Shown: piece by piece, positions 5,589 to 62,704 of the stretch | How the letters are laid out: every line of letters begins with the position of its first letter | Numbering within the stretch: position 1 is the stretch's first letter | Origin: Nostoc carneum NIES-2107 | Lineage (GTDB): Bacteria > Cyanobacteriota > Cyanobacteriia > Cyanobacteriales > Nostocaceae | Length of the DNA stretch: 64,000 nt | Assembly (NCBI GenBank): GCA_002368155.1 | Contig: AP018180.1 | Location: 6,342,908-6,406,907 of the forward strand | Reading direction: 5' to 3' | The notes under the pieces: generated by a model | The model's input: the letters and a program-made list of their open reading frames with translations, nothing else | Databases searched by the model: none | Told to the model about the DNA's origin: nothing | Made by a program: the position numbers and the translations under genes

Positions 5589-5699
5589 ATTAATATTTGT
5601 GTAGATTTATATATTGATTTAAAAGATGCGATCGCAGTTTTTCCCGAACTCAGAACGCCATCTTTTTTGTTCTATCAAGGGAATAAACCCATCCTTGAT

Positions 5700-13891: not shown

Positions 13892-14280
13892 TTGACTGTG
13901 CGACTATTTGGACATAGGCAAATTATTGTAGCAGAAAACCTTGGATATCAGCCGCATCGCATGGCAAATAGTAATAAATACTAACTCTTATTCAGCTAAA
14001 TTCTTGAAAAATCATTAAAAATTATGCCAATTTGGCAGATATATTGTGGAATAACAATATGTACCTGCCTGATAGCCCATAAAAAGGTAGAAATTTAGTC
14101 AGGGAAAGGCATAACGAGTATCGAAAAATAATGATAAGATAAATGTAATTAACGATGACAGCAAGATAAGCGATCGCTAAGACACAAATATCAAAAATTT
14201 CATTTCAGAGTGCAACTTTTGTGCTAGAATATATGCCTCATCAACTATCAGTGGGCAGCTAGAGGCAAACTATCTCCTCA
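13892..14280. other. AT-rich region upstream of the NsiR1 array
   Basis: About 390 bp without a gene between the thioredoxin-like gene and the first NsiR1 copy. It has one HIP1 octamer near 14170 but no TCCGGA motif. It must hold the promoter of the thioredoxin-like gene and of any transcript covering copy 1. Confidence 0.5.
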
Positions 14281-14345
14281 AAAAAACCCCTAGTATGTAT
14301 GAGCCTACCAGGGGAGTTAGTTATCAGGGTGCATCTACCAATTTA
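14281..14345 (+). ncRNA. nsiR1: NsiR1 copy 1 (no upstream TCCGGA)
   Basis: Hairpin CCCC...GGGG at 14287-14314 followed by the standard tail. No TCCGGA precedes it, so it either lacks the DIF+ promoter or depends on another promoter. Ends of all copies are estimated from the repeat pattern. Confidence 0.75.
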
Positions 14346-14414
14346 TTGTTCTTAGTTTAAATACAATCTTCCGGAGAATTTTTGATAGAGGGAGATTGTT
14401 GTTTTTTCGATAAC

Positions 14415-14480
14415 AAAAAAACCCCCAGTAGGCATGAGCCTACCAGGGGAGTGAGTTATCAGGGTGCATCTACCATTTGA
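14415..14480 (+). ncRNA. nsiR1: NsiR1 copy 2
   Basis: Canonical hairpin CCCCCAGTAGG...CCTACCAGGGG and tail. TCCGGA at 14370-14375 lies 45 bases before the estimated start. Confidence 0.85.
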
Positions 14481-14547
14481 TTGTTCCAGAATAAATCTAG
14501 ATGCTCCGGATAAATTCGTGATGCATCGTCAAATATTGTTAAAAAAC

Positions 14548-14610
14548 AAAAACCCCTAGAGGCTGTAGCCAACTAGGGGAGTGAGTTATCAGGGTGCATC
14601 TACCATTTAA
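14548..14610 (+). ncRNA. nsiR1: NsiR1 copy 3
   Basis: Hairpin CCCCTAGAGGC...AACTAGGGG and canonical tail. TCCGGA at 14505-14510, 43 bases before the estimated start. Confidence 0.85.
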
Positions 14611-14667
14611 TACTTCTTGTGCAGCTACCCCTATCCGGATAAATTTTTGACTGATTTACTAAAAAAT

Positions 14668-14730
14668 AAAAAACTCCACCGATTGTCATCAACCAGAGGA
14701 GTGAGTTATCAGGGTGCATCTACCATTTAA
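14668..14730 (+). ncRNA. nsiR1: NsiR1 copy 4 (variant ACTCC/GGAGT stem)
   Basis: Both arms are changed together: ACTCC on the left and GGAGT on the right, keeping the stem. TCCGGA at 14634-14639, 34 bases before the estimated start. Confidence 0.82.
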
Positions 14731-14787
14731 TTCTTCTTGTGCATCTACCCTCATCCGGATAAATTTTTGACCGATTCGCTAAAAAAT

Positions 14788-14850
14788 AAAAAACTCCACC
14801 GATTGTCATCAACCAGAGGAGTGAGTTATCAGGGTGCATCTACCATTTAA
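14788..14850 (+). ncRNA. nsiR1: NsiR1 copy 5 (variant stem)
   Basis: Nearly identical to copy 4, including the spacer. TCCGGA at 14754-14759. Confidence 0.82.
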
Positions 14851-14907
14851 TTCTTCTTGTGCAGCTACCTGTATCCGGATAAATTTTTGACCGATTCGCT
14901 AAAAAAT

Positions 14908-14970
14908 AAAAAACTCCACCGATTGCCATCAACCAGAGGAGTGAGTTATCAGGGTGCATCTACCATTTAA
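14908..14970 (+). ncRNA. nsiR1: NsiR1 copy 6 (variant stem)
   Basis: Same variant stem as copies 4 and 5, with GCCATC in place of GTCATC in the loop. TCCGGA at 14874-14879. Confidence 0.82.
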
Positions 14971-15027
14971 TTCTTCTTGTGCAGCTACCTGTATCCGGAT
15001 AAATTTTTGACCGATTCGCTAAAAAAT

Positions 15028-15091
15028 AAAAAACCCCCGCCGATTGCCATCAACCAGGGGAGTGAGTTATCAGGGTGCATCTACCATTTAA
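15028..15091 (+). ncRNA. nsiR1: NsiR1 copy 7 (intermediate stem)
   Basis: It has the loop of copies 4-6 but CCCCC/GGGG arms, so it links the two stem types. TCCGGA at 14994-14999. Confidence 0.83.
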
Positions 15092-15148
15092 CTTTTCTTG
15101 TGCAGCTACCCTCATCCGGATAAATTTTTGACCGATTCGCTAAAAAAT

Positions 15149-15212
15149 AAAAAACCCCCAGTGGTGGCAGCCAACTAGGGGAGTGGATTATCAGGGTGCA
15201 TCTACCAGTTAA
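15149..15212 (+). ncRNA. nsiR1: NsiR1 copy 8
   Basis: Hairpin CCCCCAGTGG...CCAACTAGGGG; the tail has GTGGATTATC in place of GTGAGTTATC. TCCGGA at 15115-15120, in the short-spaced class. Confidence 0.83.
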
Positions 15213-15277
15213 CTATTCTGAGTGCAACTACCCTCATCCGGATAAGATTCTCATATAGGTGTATTAGTATTAACCAC

Positions 15278-15343
15278 AAAAAATCCCCTAGTGGGTACCA
15301 GCCAGCTAGGGGAGTTAGTTATCAGGGTGCATCTACCGTTTAA
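15278..15343 (+). ncRNA. nsiR1: NsiR1 copy 9
   Basis: Hairpin CCCCTAGTGGG...CCAGCTAGGGG and canonical tail. TCCGGA at 15237-15242, 41 bases before the estimated start. Confidence 0.85.
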
Positions 15344-15411
15344 TTGTTCTAGAAGAAATAAGTAAGCTCCGGATGAAATTGTCACAATAGTGACTATCTG
15401 TTTTCTGAAGC

Positions 15412-15476
15412 AAAAAACCCCCAGTAGGTATGAGCCTACTAGGGGAGTTAGTTATCAGGGTGCATCTACCGTTTAA
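15412..15476 (+). ncRNA. nsiR1: NsiR1 copy 10
   Basis: Canonical hairpin and tail. TCCGGA at 15368-15373, 44 bases before the estimated start. Its downstream spacer is almost identical to that of copy 9. Confidence 0.86.
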
Positions 15477-15543
15477 TTGTTCTAGAAGAAATAAGTAAGC
15501 TCCGGATGAAATTGTCACAATAGTGATTATTCGTTTTCTTAAG

Positions 15544-15608
15544 AAAAAACCCCCAGTAAGTGTTAGCCTACCAGGGGAGTTAGTTATCAGGGTGCATCTA
15601 CCATTTAA
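15544..15608 (+). ncRNA. nsiR1: NsiR1 copy 11
   Basis: Canonical hairpin (CCCCCAGTAAG...CCTACCAGGGG) and tail. TCCGGA at 15501-15506. Confidence 0.86.
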
Positions 15609-15682
15609 TTGTTCTCTAGATAACAAGCATCATCCGGATAAAATTCACTATGTATTGGTTTTATTGTCATTTGTCGTCCTAG

Positions 15683-15748
15683 AAAAAAACCCCCAGTAAG
15701 CATTAGCCTACCAGGGGAGTTAGTTATCAGGGTGCATCTACCATTTAA
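15683..15748 (+). ncRNA. nsiR1: NsiR1 copy 12
   Basis: Canonical hairpin and tail. TCCGGA at 15633-15638, the longest spacing in the array (50 bases). Confidence 0.85.
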
Positions 15749-15813
15749 TTGTTCCCCAGAGAACCCTCAAGCTCCGGATAAATTTACTAAAATGTGTATT
15801 CTAGTTATGTGTC

Positions 15814-15877
15814 AAAACAAACCCAAAGGATGCTAGGCAAAGAATCACAGGAAAGCGGTTTGATCTACCACGTTCTC
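15814..15877 (+). ncRNA. nsiR1: Degenerate NsiR1 copy 13
   Basis: It sits at the expected place, 41 bases after TCCGGA at 15773-15778, but the hairpin and tail have decayed: ACCCAAAGGATGCTAGGC and then TTTGATCTACCACG in place of GGTGCATCTACC. It may still be transcribed, but it would lack the normal stem. Confidence 0.55.
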
Positions 15878-15922
15878 CAGTTAATAATGCTTGTGTCTGA
15901 GGATGTTGTTATTTGCCAACAT

Positions 15923-15988
15923 AAAAAAATCCCCTAATTGGCGAATGCCCATTAGGGGAGTCGAAGATCAAGGTGCATCTACCAATAA
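15923..15988 (+). ncRNA. nsiR1: NsiR1 copy 14 (divergent, nearest hetF)
   Basis: Good stem CCCCTAATTGG...CCCATTAGGGG, with a changed tail (GTCGAAGATCAAGGTGCATC). No TCCGGA lies in the preceding 110 bases, so its own DIF+ promoter is missing. Transcription may come from upstream. Confidence 0.7.
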
Positions 15989-16013
15989 ACTGTTCTACTC
16001 AGATGTCAACTAA

Positions 16014-16342
16014 TCCGGATAAAGTTGTAAAAGCCTAAGGGACTTCCAATTAAACAATATCCTATTGCCTTGTAGGCACAGGAGCAGGGAGCAGGTGAAC
16101 CAGCAAAGTCTTCTGTGCAAGAAGCTGCACGTTGGTGTTAGCCTCTCGTAGATTAAGAGTAGGAAGAAAAAGATTATCTGAGTAATTGGATAATTTATTT
16201 TCTATCAGTCCCTAAAAAAGCAAAATCACGAGTATTCAGAAACATTCAGTGGCAAGATGCATCTAAGGTATCAGAAGAAGCGAAAAATCGACTTGAAACT
16301 TTCGCGTTTCAAACCTGATTTAGGAGGCGAAGAGGAGAAGTT
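16014..16342 (+). promoter_or_regulatory. hetF promoter/leader with DIF+ motif and NsiR1-complementary site
   Basis: The last TCCGGA (16014-16019) lies about 320 bases before hetF and could drive a DIF+ hetF transcript. Within the leader, AGATGCATCT at 16255-16264 can pair with the TGCATCT of the NsiR1 tail: seven Watson-Crick pairs, extendable by about three pairs including G-U. Immediately before the gene, GGAGG at 16323-16327 and GAGGAG at 16332-16337 form the ribosome-binding region. The rest holds no reading frame I would support. Confidence 0.6.
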
Positions 16343-18829
16343 GTGACCCAGGAATTTCATATTTCCGTAACCCCAGTAGGGCAAAATGACTACTTGGTGC
16401 GGACGGAACAAGTCGCGCCTGGGGTGCCATTAGCAGAAGAACTGGTGACTTGGCCTGTAGCTGATTGGTTAGCTGCTGCTGGGCATTTGATGAACGATCC
16501 GTTGATGTCAGTGTTGCAAGGAGATGCGATCGCCTTTGGTGGACGTGAAAGCGACATTGCCAGAAACTCAGTCAATCTAGTAGCTTTGGGTCAGCAACTA
16601 TATAATGCACTGTTTCAAGGCACTCTTAGAGATAGTTGGATTACAGCACAAGGTATCGCCCAGAATCACCAACAGGTGTTGCGTCTACGCTTAGGGTTGA
16701 AAGATACTAGGTTAGCGCGGCTACCTTGGGAAGTTATGCACGCAGGCGATCGCCCTCTCGCCACCGGGCCTTATGTCGCTTTTTCTCGCTACCAAAGTGG
16801 AATTCTGCCAGCATCTCGGTTGCCATCAAAAAATATACCGCAACCCTTAGAAGAAGGTGGTATCAAAGTATTAATGGTGATTGCCTCACCTACAGATCAA
16901 GTCCGTCTGGATTTGCTCAAACATGAGGCTATTAAACTGCAAGCCGAACTACAACGCCACATACCACGTGCCGCAGAAAGTGGTAATTATCTACCAGATA
17001 TTGAACTTAAAGTTTTAGATCAGCCAGGGCGGGAAGAATTGACGCAAGCCCTAGAACAAGGGCGATATCATGTTCTACACTACTCCGGCCATAGTAATCT
17101 TGGTGCCAATGGTGGCGAAATTTATCTAGTTAATAACAGAACTGGCTTAACAGAAACCTTAAGTGGCGACGATTTGGCAGGTTTGCTTGTCAATAATAAT
17201 ATCCAAATGGCGGTATTTAACTCCTGTTTGGGAGCATACAGCGCTAACAGCGATACTGGTGAGGACACTGGAGAACGTAACCTGACAGAAAGCTTAGTTA
17301 AGCGCGGTATTAGAAGCGTCTTAGCTATGTCAGAACGCATTCCTGATGAAGTAGCGCTGACGCTGACACAATTGTTTTACCGCAACCTCAATCAAGGATA
17401 TCCTGTGGATTTGTGTGTGAGTCGAGTACGCCAAGGGCTAATATCTGCCTATGGTTCTCACCACATGTATTGGGCGTTACCAATTTTATATCTCCAACCG
17501 GAATTTGACGGTTTTCTTAGCCCAGAAATCCCTGATAGTGCAGAAGCACTCAATGAGTATAATCCCGCTTTCAGGGGAAATCCCGCAGCTATGTACTCTG
17601 ATGTCGCCGAGGAGAGTGATCTGTCTTTAATGGAGGACATGATCCCTTCGGGTTTAGCGCGTGACTCATCAGGGCTGGATTGGTTAGGAGAAGATACTTG
17701 GGGCGATTTGGTTGATGAAATCGAGTATGATGATGACCCCAGCTATGCAGAAGATTCCGCACTGGTTTCAGATTTGTTTCGTCAACTTGATAGCCAAAAA
17801 GGGATATCTGAGCAATCATCTTCCATGACGGCGGAACTTGTACCCCACGACAATAGCCTGCGGGGAAGACAACTTTCTTCAGAATTGACTACACCTGATC
17901 AAGAAGCTAGCTTTTGGGAAGAAGAACCAGAACCTGCAAATGAAACTTCTACAAGTTTTGATGGTAATTGGAATCATAATTCCTATGGCAGCTCACAAAC
18001 ATATCCCTCAAAACGCCGCCAGCGTCGGCAGATTTGGCCGATTGTAGGTATTGTAGGAGCAAGTGCGATCGCAGTTGTTGTGTGTGTCAATTTGTGGCAA
18101 AATCATCAAGCGAAAAAATTACCTCCCATACCACCAATTCCTATTCAGTCGATTACCGCCCAACCTCCTGTAGATTTAAAGACGGCTGCAACTGGAATTG
18201 TCACTGCTACCGCTACGGAAAAATTGAGCCAAGGCGACTTACAAGCAGGGCTAGAGGCTGTAGAAGAATTACTTAACCGTGGCGCGCTTCCTCCCGCCCA
18301 AGCCGCGTTAAAACTTGTCCCGCCAAAGCAAGCTGATAATCCATCTGTCAACTTTTTCAAAGGAAGATTAGCTTGGCAATTTGTGCAGATAAAAGATAAA
18401 AAATACAGTATTGATGATGCCCGCCGTTATTGGGAAAGTGCTGTAAAAGCAGATCCAGAATCGTTTTTATATAATAATGCTTTGGGATTTGCTTATTATG
18501 CAGAGGATAACTTAAATCGAGCTAATGATTCTTGGTTTAAAGCTTTAAATTTAGCACTTAAGCAACAAGCAACTACTAAGAATACTACATCTAAAGATGC
18601 TTTAACTTCTTATGCTGGATTGGCTTTAGGGCTTTATAAATCTGCTTATAATCAACCATCTGAAAAACAGTATCAATATATGAATGAAGCGCTAAAATTG
18701 CGCCAAATGGTCATTAAGGACGATCCGATAGATTTCCAGGTAGATAAATTAAGCCAAAATTGGCTATGGACAGAAAAGGCTATTGCTGATTGGCGATCGC
18801 TACTGCAAGAAAAAGCTCAAAAACAGTAA
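16343..18829 (+). CDS. hetF: HetF, CHAT-domain heterocyst differentiation protease
   Basis: HetF is required for heterocyst differentiation and correct cell size in Anabaena/Nostoc, where it acts as a caspase-like CHAT protease (reported substrate PatU3). This 828-residue protein has a CHAT domain at about 120-390. The likely dyad is a histidine in VLHYSGHSNLG (H246 or H250) and C295 in MAVFNSCLGA. An acidic Ser-rich linker covers 400-555, a single membrane helix 563-584 (WPIVGIVGASAIAVVVCVNL), and a helical TPR-like region 600-828. The GTG start is chosen from the strong GAGGAG upstream. Position right after the NsiR1 array matches PCC 7120. Confidence 0.95.
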   Translation: MTQEFHISVTPVGQNDYLVRTEQVAPGVPLAEELVTWPVADWLAAAGHLMNDPLMSVLQGDAIAFGGRESDIARNSVNLVALGQQLYNALFQGTLRDSWITAQGIAQNHQQVLRLRLGLKDTRLARLPWEVMHAGDRPLATGPYVAFSRYQSGILPASRLPSKNIPQPLEEGGIKVLMVIASPTDQVRLDLLKHEAIKLQAELQRHIPRAAESGNYLPDIELKVLDQPGREELTQALEQGRYHVLHYSGHSNLGANGGEIYLVNNRTGLTETLSGDDLAGLLVNNNIQMAVFNSCLGAYSANSDTGEDTGERNLTESLVKRGIRSVLAMSERIPDEVALTLTQLFYRNLNQGYPVDLCVSRVRQGLISAYGSHHMYWALPILYLQPEFDGFLSPEIPDSAEALNEYNPAFRGNPAAMYSDVAEESDLSLMEDMIPSGLARDSSGLDWLGEDTWGDLVDEIEYDDDPSYAEDSALVSDLFRQLDSQKGISEQSSSMTAELVPHDNSLRGRQLSSELTTPDQEASFWEEEPEPANETSTSFDGNWNHNSYGSSQTYPSKRRQRRQIWPIVGIVGASAIAVVVCVNLWQNHQAKKLPPIPPIPIQSITAQPPVDLKTAATGIVTATATEKLSQGDLQAGLEAVEELLNRGALPPAQAALKLVPPKQADNPSVNFFKGRLAWQFVQIKDKKYSIDDARRYWESAVKADPESFLYNNALGFAYYAEDNLNRANDSWFKALNLALKQQATTKNTTSKDALTSYAGLALGLYKSAYNQPSEKQYQYMNEALKLRQMVIKDDPIDFQVDKLSQNWLWTEKAIADWRSLLQEKAQKQ

Positions 18830-61315: not shown

Positions 61316-62704
61316 CTAGTCAAGTTCGGTCATGGACATTACTGGCTCATTCTCACGGTCAATACCTTTCTCAAAACCACCTGCTGCTGCTCTAGCGCGA
61401 CCAGCGTGCCACAAGTGACCAATGAGGAAGAAGAAACCTAAAACGAAGTGAGAAGTTGCCAACCATGCACGAGGAGATACATAGTTGAAGGAGTTGATTT
61501 CTGTTGCTACACCACCTACGGAGTTCAGAGAACCCAGAGGCGCGTGGGTCATATATTCAGCAGCGCGACGAGCTTGCCAAGGCTGAATATCGTTCTTGAT
61601 TTTGTTTAAGTCGAGACCGTTAGGCCCACGTAGAGGCTCCAACCAAGGGCCACGGAAATCCCAGAAGCGCATGGTTTCACCACCAAAGATGATTTCACCA
61701 CTAGGAGAGCGCATCAAGTATTTACCTAGACCAGTGGGGCCTTGAGCAGAACCAACGTTAGCACCTAAGCGTTGGTCACGAATCAAGAAGGTTAAAGCTT
61801 GAGCTTGAGAAGCTTCAGGTCCAGTAGGTCCGTAGAATTCGCTGGGGTAAACGGTGTTGTTGTACCAAACCATACAGGAAGCAATAAAGCCCATCAAGGA
61901 CAGAGCGCCCAAGCTGTAGGAGAGGTAAGCTTCACCAGACCAGATGGATGCACGACGTGACCAAGCGAAAGGCTTAGTAAAGATGTGCCAAATACCACCA
62001 GCAATACAGATGAAAGCAATCCAGATGTGACCACCGATAACATCTTCCATGTTATCGACGCTGACGATCCAGCCTTCGCCACCAAAAGGAGACTTGATGA
62101 GATAACCAAAGATAATGGCTGGGTTCAGTGTTGGGTTAGTGATCACACGAACATCACCACCACCAGGTGCCCAAGTGTCATAAACACCACCGAAGAACAT
62201 AGCCTTCAGCACCAACAACAGCGCACCGCATCCTAAGATGATTAGGTGAAAGCCGATGATATTGGTCATTTTGTTCTTGTCTTTCCAGTCATAACCAAAG
62301 AAGGAAGAATATTCTTCTAAGGTTTCTGGGCCACGAACGGCATGATAAATACCACCAAAACCTAGTACCGCTGAGGAAATCAGGTGAAGTACACCAACAA
62401 CAAAGTAGGGGAATGTGTCGATGACTTCGCCACCAGCACCAACGCCCCATCCCAAGGTAGCGATGTGAGGTAACAAGATTAAGCCTTGCTCATACATAGG
62501 CTTTTCAGGGATGAAGTGAGCGACTTCAAACAAAGTCATCGCTCCAGCCCAGAATACGATCAAACCAGCATGGGCAACGTGAGCACCAAGCAGTTTGCCA
62601 GATAGGTTAATCAAACGAGCGTTACCAGACCACCAGGCAAAACCTGTTGATTCTATATCGCGTCCACCGCCCAGGACGGCCGATCTATTAGAGAGCGTTA
62701 CCAC
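61316..62704 (-). CDS. psbC: Photosystem II CP43 chlorophyll-binding protein
   Basis: CP43 is the inner antenna of photosystem II and a ligand of the Mn4Ca cluster. The protein begins [20 protein letters not shown], and the loop motif [20 protein letters not shown] holds the conserved Glu and Arg next to the cluster. The frame is open to 62731, but psbC in cyanobacteria and plastids starts at a GTG inside psbD. That GTG is at 62704, giving 462 residues and a 17-base overlap with psbD. The two are cotranscribed. Confidence 0.97.

Follow-up and report, generated by a model that had tools for sequence, protein, structure and literature searches.

The NsiR1 array upstream of hetF

The 64,000-nucleotide stretch of the Nostoc carneum NIES-2107 genome analysed here (the window; coordinates are positions within it unless a G or L code is given) contains a tandem array of the small RNA (sRNA) NsiR1, Rfam family RF02399, upstream of the gene hetF. 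The array spans positions 14279–16019. Thirteen units score at or above the Rfam gathering cut-off of 39 bits (45.6–74.8 bits), and all 13 are on the minus strand, between 14279 and 15984, so that the array is directed away from the divergent hetF. A permissive RF02399 scan of the window (E<=1) returned the identical 13 units and no fourteenth. The RNA 5' end was predicted as the first base of [TC]GGTAGATG on the minus strand in the 13 units. Relative to this base the DIF1 motif TCCGGA starts at -35 in eight units and at -34 in five, and is therefore present in 13/13. The locus very probably represents a heterocyst-type cyanobacterium's NsiR1 array, in which 13 DIF1 promoters fire away from hetF, each giving an RNA of about 60 nt. 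The features are listed below, each intact unit with its DIF1 motif and the position of that motif relative to the RNA start.

16343..18829, plus strand: hetF, 828 aa, NCBIfam NF045509 1489.7 bits (cut-off 1200), divergent from the array
15923..15984, minus strand: NsiR1 unit 1, hetF-proximal class with CACCTTGATCTTC, RF02399 58.5 bits, class conserved beside hetF; DIF1 TCCGGA 16014..16019, at -35
15811..15870, minus strand: NsiR1 unit 2, decayed relic that still begins GGTAGATC, lacks TCCGGA and gives no Rfam match at E<=1
15682..15743, minus strand: NsiR1 unit 3, RF02399 72.0 bits; DIF1 motif 15773..15778, at -35
15542..15603, minus strand: NsiR1 unit 4, RF02399 74.8 bits; DIF1 motif 15633..15638, at -35
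15410..15471, minus strand: NsiR1 unit 5, RF02399 68.0 bits; DIF1 motif 15501..15506, at -35
15277..15338, minus strand: NsiR1 unit 6, RF02399 64.3 bits; DIF1 motif 15368..15373, at -35
15147..15207, minus strand: NsiR1 unit 7, RF02399 67.5 bits; DIF1 motif 15237..15242, at -35
15026..15086, minus strand: NsiR1 unit 8, RF02399 54.6 bits; DIF1 motif 15115..15120, at -34
14908..14965, minus strand: NsiR1 unit 9, variant stem, RF02399 46.2 bits; DIF1 motif 14994..14999, at -34
14788..14845, minus strand: NsiR1 unit 10, variant stem, RF02399 45.6 bits; DIF1 motif 14874..14879, at -34
14668..14725, minus strand: NsiR1 unit 11, variant stem, RF02399 45.6 bits; DIF1 motif 14754..14759, at -34
14545..14605, minus strand: NsiR1 unit 12, RF02399 62.4 bits; DIF1 motif 14634..14639, at -34
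14414..14475, minus strand: NsiR1 unit 13, RF02399 70.7 bits; DIF1 motif 14505..14510, at -35
14279..14340, minus strand: NsiR1 unit 14, RF02399 68.5 bits; DIF1 motif 14370..14375, at -35

The starts of neighbouring units are 120–140 bp apart, with the single exception of a gap of 241. This gap holds the decayed unit 2 (approximately 15811–15870, minus strand), which begins GGTAGATC, has no TCCGGA and is below Rfam detection. The relic explains the count of 14 units, 13 motifs and a minimum spacing of 109 in the original prediction, which was made from the sequence alone. Fourteen is correct only if the decayed unit is included, as 13 are intact. The same prediction of 13 TCCGGA (DIF) motifs was confirmed, its identification of the family as NsiR1 agrees with the Rfam search, and the CHAT-protein gene that it called hetF matches the NF045509 model well above the cut-off. 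It specified no strand. Genomes G002, G004 and G006 also keep the relic gap; G012 keeps it too, but with insertions.

TCCGGA occurs 19 times in the window, 13 of these in the array, against a chance expectation of 7.5 for the whole window, and none of 100 shuffles of the window reached 19. The RNA 5' end is fixed as UGGUAGAUGCACCCUGAU in ten units; in two the first base is C, and unit 1 has UGGUAGAUGCACCUUGAU. A hairpin of -14.1 kcal/mol or lower precedes a T-run in all 13 intact units. Three overlapping 240-nt copies within the array are 90–100% alike, forming blocks of near-identical 120-bp repeats, and the promoters of units 5 and 6 are identical. In units 7–12 the spacer from TCCGGA to the RNA start contains GGTAGCTGCAC-like stretches (GGTAGATGCAC in unit 11) that are similar to the RNA's own 5' sequence. 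Clustered regularly interspaced short palindromic repeats (CRISPR) and transposon repeats were considered as identities for the array and dropped, since what is conserved is a unit made up of the promoter motif, the 5' sequence and the hairpin.

The genome has 14 RF02399 matches, 13 of them within the array. The number per genome is 2–16 across 23 same-family genomes (own included) and 9–15 across the eight of the genus. In the sample of the class, the median is 9 for same-family genomes (n=17, own included, maximum 14) and 5 for the remaining genomes above the cut-off (n=135, maximum 16). Thirteen copies is high, is no record and is not exceptional; the earlier suggestion that the copy number would be among the larger is only weakly true.

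The hetF-proximal unit

Unit 1 is a separate class, with CACCTTGATCTTC where other units show CACCCTGATAAC or CACCCTGATAATC, and two or more stem types occur among the central units. The array had been seen as many parallel promoters for one sRNA. There is indeed one DIF1 motif per intact unit; that the units encode one sRNA is too simple a view, given the distinct class of unit 1 and the differing central stems. The unit-1 class recurs in seven of eight other same-family loci examined (L010, L011, L015 and L032-L035; it is absent from L036), and in 7/7 loci having the class it adjoins hetF.

In Nostoc PCC 7120, NsiR1 (RF02399) is present in 12 copies upstream of hetF (PMC9045159, PMC8406250). 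Both there and in the window there is a tandem array pointing away from hetF, with a DIF1 motif for each unit, a distinct hetF-proximal unit and an RNA of about 60 nt with a 3' hairpin, the RNA of the window being predicted. The window differs in its 13 intact units, unit-2 relic and several central stem types, whereas seven identical central copies are reported for PCC 7120 (PMC9045159). Nodularia spumigena CCY9414 likewise has its repeats upstream of hetF and differs in copy number, with 12 (PMC3610870). Work in PCC 7120 describes repression of hetF by NsiR1.1 and of alr3234 by NsiR1.4, with partly different targets for unit 1 and the central units (PMC9045159). The hetF start site of that strain has been placed 256 nt upstream of the open reading frame (ORF), inside nsiR1.2 (PMC8406250). 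The relic in the window occupies the position matching nsiR1.2, and by analogy it may carry the hetF promoter. Unit 1 begins 359 nt upstream of the hetF ORF, on the opposite strand, a layout compatible with an RNA antisense to the hetF leader.

A solitary copy between lgt and cobM, and DIF1-type units in other genomes

The fourteenth match (G000:C1:1268944-1268995, 53.2 bits) has its own TCCGGA and is flanked by lgt (TIGR00544, 266.6 bits) and cobM (TIGR01465, 340.8 bits). Named genomes were scanned with TGGTAGATGCACCCTGRTB, a pattern picked to omit the GATA-type array units, which identified at least 119 loci with 142 units. Among the matches listed, 133/142 units have TCCNGA within -42 to -23, the 5' sequence itself being fixed by the search. 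The forms are TCCGGA (87), TCCTGA (38), TCCCGA (6) and TCCAGA (2), and the nearest TCCNGA is at -36 to -34 in 132 units. As a control, 359 rearranged words were found in a mean of 2.2 units, the highest (up to 111) being shifted versions of the TCCNGA motif. Nine of the 142 listed units are without TCCNGA. These include L040, labelled Clostridia, a chance match with neither motif nor hairpin that is in the 142-unit promoter count and out of the context and hairpin counts.

Within the 118 listed loci analysed, cobM is the promoter-side neighbour in 40 (2 overlapping as called) and lgt the terminator-side neighbour in 35. A hetF with its N-terminus is present in 19 listed loci (two of which are one contig), always divergent and 154–975 nt from the RNA by distances derived by hand. 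A terminator hairpin of -10 kcal/mol or lower was found in 106/130 distinct units, compared with 20/390 shuffles, and among the 24 failures several visibly have a hairpin overlooked by the T-run rule. This test replaced one based on global folding (61/139 units, 69/695 shuffles), in which folding paired the T-run with other bases.

Many of the listed loci are from genera regarded as non-heterocystous: Leptolyngbya (PCC 7375 and PCC 6406), Microcoleus, Moorena, Symploca, Spirulina and Coleofasciculus. The lgt-cobM site of NsiR1 is conserved into non-heterocystous genera.

Co-occurrence of NsiR1 and HetR

An Escherichia coli control matches RF02399 below the cut-off, and hits under 39 bits were therefore tallied separately. 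Of 291 genomes of the class, 160 contain NsiR1 (152 above the cut-off) and 150 contain HetR at E<=0.001 (133 above the HetR cut-off). All 150 HetR-positive genomes carry an NsiR1 match, which is above the cut-off in 148 and below it in G195 and G267. Ten genomes have NsiR1 without a detected HetR; in six the match is weak and below the cut-off (three checked individually, three judged from E-values and the overall tally), and in G044, G059, G128 (62% complete) and G272 it is above. The above-cut-off table is 148 with both, 2 with HetR only, 4 with NsiR1 only and 137 with neither (Fisher p ~1e-75, which overstates the evidence since the genomes are related).

The same association is seen in 40 named genomes picked from the scan, 37 of which have HetR; the exceptions are two Chamaesiphon and the chance match L040. 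The Chamaesiphon units keep TCCCGA or TCCTGA, and those of G044 and G059 keep TCCGGA or TCCTGA, so the NsiR1 RNA and its motif can occur without HetR. Across these genomes NsiR1 tracks HetR rather than heterocysts.

A second class with a HetR-type palindrome

The weak NsiR1 hits of G195 and G267 start TAGTAGATGCACCCTGATGA, have no TCCGGA and are preceded by GGGGN5CCCC plus TATATT. GGGN5CCC is a potential HetR-binding site (PMC7377430). These hits belong to a second class of units that has a 14-nt 5' sequence (the seed) in common with NsiR1 and the HetR-type palindrome GGGN5CCC (the box) in place of TCCGGA. A seed-plus-stem pattern in which the box was not required matched 19/243 genomes of the order. 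When G195 and G267 are added to those 19, 13/14 HetR-positive and 0/7 HetR-negative genomes have the box, the seven negatives being one genus.

A pattern of seed and box (exact seed, gap 15-42) was found in 127/243 genomes, and a reversed-pattern control in none. HetR is present in 138 of the 243 at E<=0.001, 135 of them above the cut-off. Both were found in 124 genomes, HetR only in 14, the pattern only in three (G030, G468 and G519) and neither in 102. The arrangement is thus in 124/138 HetR-positive and 3/105 HetR-negative genomes; 11 of the 14 HetR-only genomes are of the window's own family. The palindrome centre is 37 nt from the seed in 36/56 occurrences counted.

Upstream GGGN5CCC was found in 3/142 listed DIF1-type units, all in L071, and in 0/13 window units. 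In 56 distinct bodies of the second class TCCNGA is in the -35 region of 0/56 and GGGN5CCC is present in 55/56, most having been selected by the box-requiring pattern. An alignment of 44/55 distinct box-carrying units (11 near-duplicates omitted) retains the hairpin, and 7/7 predicted pairs show pair-keeping double changes, to which four rows with another stem contribute. In the relatives scanned, such units score 26.3-37.2 bits with RF02399, under the cut-off of 39.

Carriers that could be named via identical HetR coordinates include Moorena SIO3I8 (G506), Symploca SIO1C2 (G533), ESFC-1 (G448), Spirulina CS-785/01 (G368) and Microseira wollei (G421). N. carneum itself has two palindrome units, G000:C1:789169-789224 and 789643-789698 (L260:5170-5225 and 5644-5699), upstream of argJ (TIGR00120, 550.8 bits). 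Unlike the HetR-regulated genes described in PMC7377430, whose GGGN5CCC site fits the palindrome upstream of the argJ-linked units, what follows the palindrome here is a predicted small RNA with the NsiR1 5' sequence. In other genomes the class is often situated between gatB and argJ. Among 57 loci for which neighbouring genes were grouped by clustering, some overlapping each other and seven from the HetR-negative genus, gatB is near 27, argJ near 17 and both near 15, including those of same-family G234 and G274. On the gatB side the N. carneum genome has a VapC-like gene (78.8 bits, below the model cut-off of 140) and an adjacent small gene.

The palindrome class also occurs in tandem arrays: in Symploca SIO1C2 (G533) eight copies recur about every 200 bp, and in G471 four recur every 132 bp (L242, L240). 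A seed RNA, [CT]AGTAGATGCACCCTGATGA, persists in the HetR-negative genomes of loci L213-L219 (genus g44, family f8); it lacks both TCCGGA and GGGN5CCC and has a conserved TACTCTRGGGAGTAACC upstream. A search of the open-access literature found no paper joining HetR, sRNA and 'HetR-binding site'.

Viral occurrences

A DIF1-spaced unit composed of TCCGGA, GTAGATGCACCCTGATAAACTAACT, a hairpin and a T-run is present at L277:3637-3735, on a phage contig (IMGVR_UViG_3300021392_000003) that encodes terminase, portal, head-protease and capsid proteins. This may be a phage copy or a mimic of NsiR1. A nearly identical unit on another contig, L270, lacks TCCGGA. Among the viral matches listed, only L277, from the exact-seed scan, unites motif, full seed, hairpin and T-run; viral motif-plus-seed scans (at least 120 stretches, and a further 24) returned apparently chance hits, with 158 viral loci examined in all, 14 of them from the exact-seed scan. 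No match was obtained by BLAST when the L277 unit was compared with phages, or a piece of the array with phages and plasmids.

At the far end of the window, 62101-62287 on the plus strand matches IsrR, the isiA antisense RNA (174.6 bits).

Interpretation

The N. carneum genome has three sets of such genes: the hetF array, the solitary lgt-cobM copy and the argJ-linked pair. A HetR gene is present in the genome as well. All three sets probably report HetR activity, either through DIF1, with HetZ as the intermediate as published for other genes, or directly. HetZ-dependent DIF1 promoters have been published for patS, patX and hetR (PMC7377430). Most likely HetR would activate hetZ, and the HetZ-dependent DIF1 promoters of the array would fire early in differentiating cells. 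Each intact unit would then yield an RNA of about 60 nt with a fixed 5' end followed by a terminator hairpin. The central units would most likely act in trans, their 5' sequence pairing with mRNAs near start codons, and unit 1 would most likely act as an antisense RNA on the hetF leader, blocking hetF. HetR would act on the argJ-linked units without HetZ as intermediate. What the sequences show are the units, their strand, the motif spacing, the hairpins, the conservation and the co-occurrence with HetR; transcription, HetR dependence and targets are inferred here.

Is NsiR1, then, a heterocyst RNA, or something older? On the present evidence we favour the view, with a fair degree of confidence, that it is one arm of an ancient HetR-reporting sRNA superfamily older than heterocysts. 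In this superfamily AGAUGCACCCUGAU would be expressed in nearly all HetR carriers, from DIF1 promoters at hetF, lgt-cobM and other loci, or from HetR-bound promoters on the gatB/argJ side and at dispersed copies. In filaments that form no heterocysts, HetR would exert its effect mostly via this RNA and a conserved target of it. The hetF array would be an expansion of the DIF1 arm brought about by the heterocyst programme, and the palindrome could be lost after HetR loss while the RNA stays.

Several results weigh against the explanation given above for the three gene sets. The argJ-linked units of N. carneum have no RF02399 match at E<=1, what they share with NsiR1 being the 14-nt 5' sequence and a hairpin and not the family profile, and G044, G059, G128 and G272 have NsiR1 above the cut-off with no detected HetR. 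The proposed targets are also affected. In PCC 7120, removal of the nsiR1.1 -10 box is reported to have changed a hetF transcriptional reporter little (PMC8406250); this, and the position of unit 1 at 359 nt compared with the PCC 7120 hetF start at 256 nt, weaken the case for antisense action on hetF here. A single HetP-family gene was detected in the genome (G000:C2:190657-190842), on contig C2 (553,734 bp) and not on the 8.35-Mb C1, so the published hetP-like target alr3234 may be missing here. For a trans target, off-array sites with one mismatch to the 5' sequence were sought in the genome (22 sites, 19 fetched, 16 inspected), and none was convincing.

An alternative to common descent is that the palindrome class is unrelated to NsiR1 and that the 14-nt sequence is shared by convergence on one target. 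This is possible, although we think it the less likely explanation. The 3' stem differs from that of NsiR1, the body is below the RF02399 cut-off or unscored in the loci scanned, and the commonest palindrome-class locus (gatB/argJ) is not that of NsiR1. Yet the two classes have a long stretch in common (AGATGCACCCTGAT), located close to the 5' end in each, and both track HetR. The same target would be expected under descent and under convergence, so the choice between them matters little for the functional claim.

For the array itself, it could be argued, along the lines of the original prediction, that it is a gene-dosage device only, with interchangeable copies of one RNA whose sole job is high early output. 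The near-identical 120-bp repeat blocks and the identical promoters of units 5 and 6 are signs of recent copying, as selection for dosage would give. However, such copying can arise without dose selection, the class of unit 1 is separate and is conserved across several genera, the central stems differ, and in PCC 7120 unit 1 and the central units are reported to differ in their effects (PMC9045159); dosage as the only function is therefore unlikely. It is highly improbable that the units instead function in the plus-strand direction, forming a series of terminators or attenuators in a long hetF leader, with the minus-strand RNAs as by-products. Their stems, being inverted repeats, can form on either strand, and the PCC 7120 hetF start site is inside nsiR1.2 (PMC8406250), but it is on the minus strand that a T-run comes after the stem, Rfam scores the minus strand only, a fixed distance separates TCCGGA from the minus-strand 5' end, and similar units are present far from hetF, at lgt-cobM and elsewhere.

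The array as such adds one genome to a known arrangement. What goes beyond it, as judged within the open-access literature, are the lgt-cobM lineage, the HetR link outside heterocyst formers and the palindrome class. An NsiR1-like RNA has already been published for non-heterocystous Limnospira indica PCC 8005, where RNA162 is one RNA in one strain; the passages describing it in PMC8400943 mention neither a promoter motif nor a multi-genome link to HetR. Homologs of predicted sRNAs have also been mapped across non-heterocystous genomes in a figure of PMC4734099.

If an sRNA with a fixed 5' sequence does follow HetR throughout the class, driven by two kinds of HetR-linked promoter, what HetR does in non-heterocystous filaments becomes testable. 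The concrete handle would be whichever mRNA pairs with AGAUGCACCCUGAU in a model without heterocysts, such as Leptolyngbya BL0902, for which hetR deletion mutants exist; RNA-seq of its hetR and patX deletions has been published, with reads counted over protein-coding genes (PMC11298460). The 'heterocyst-specific' RNA would then have been co-opted for heterocyst development and not have arisen for that purpose.

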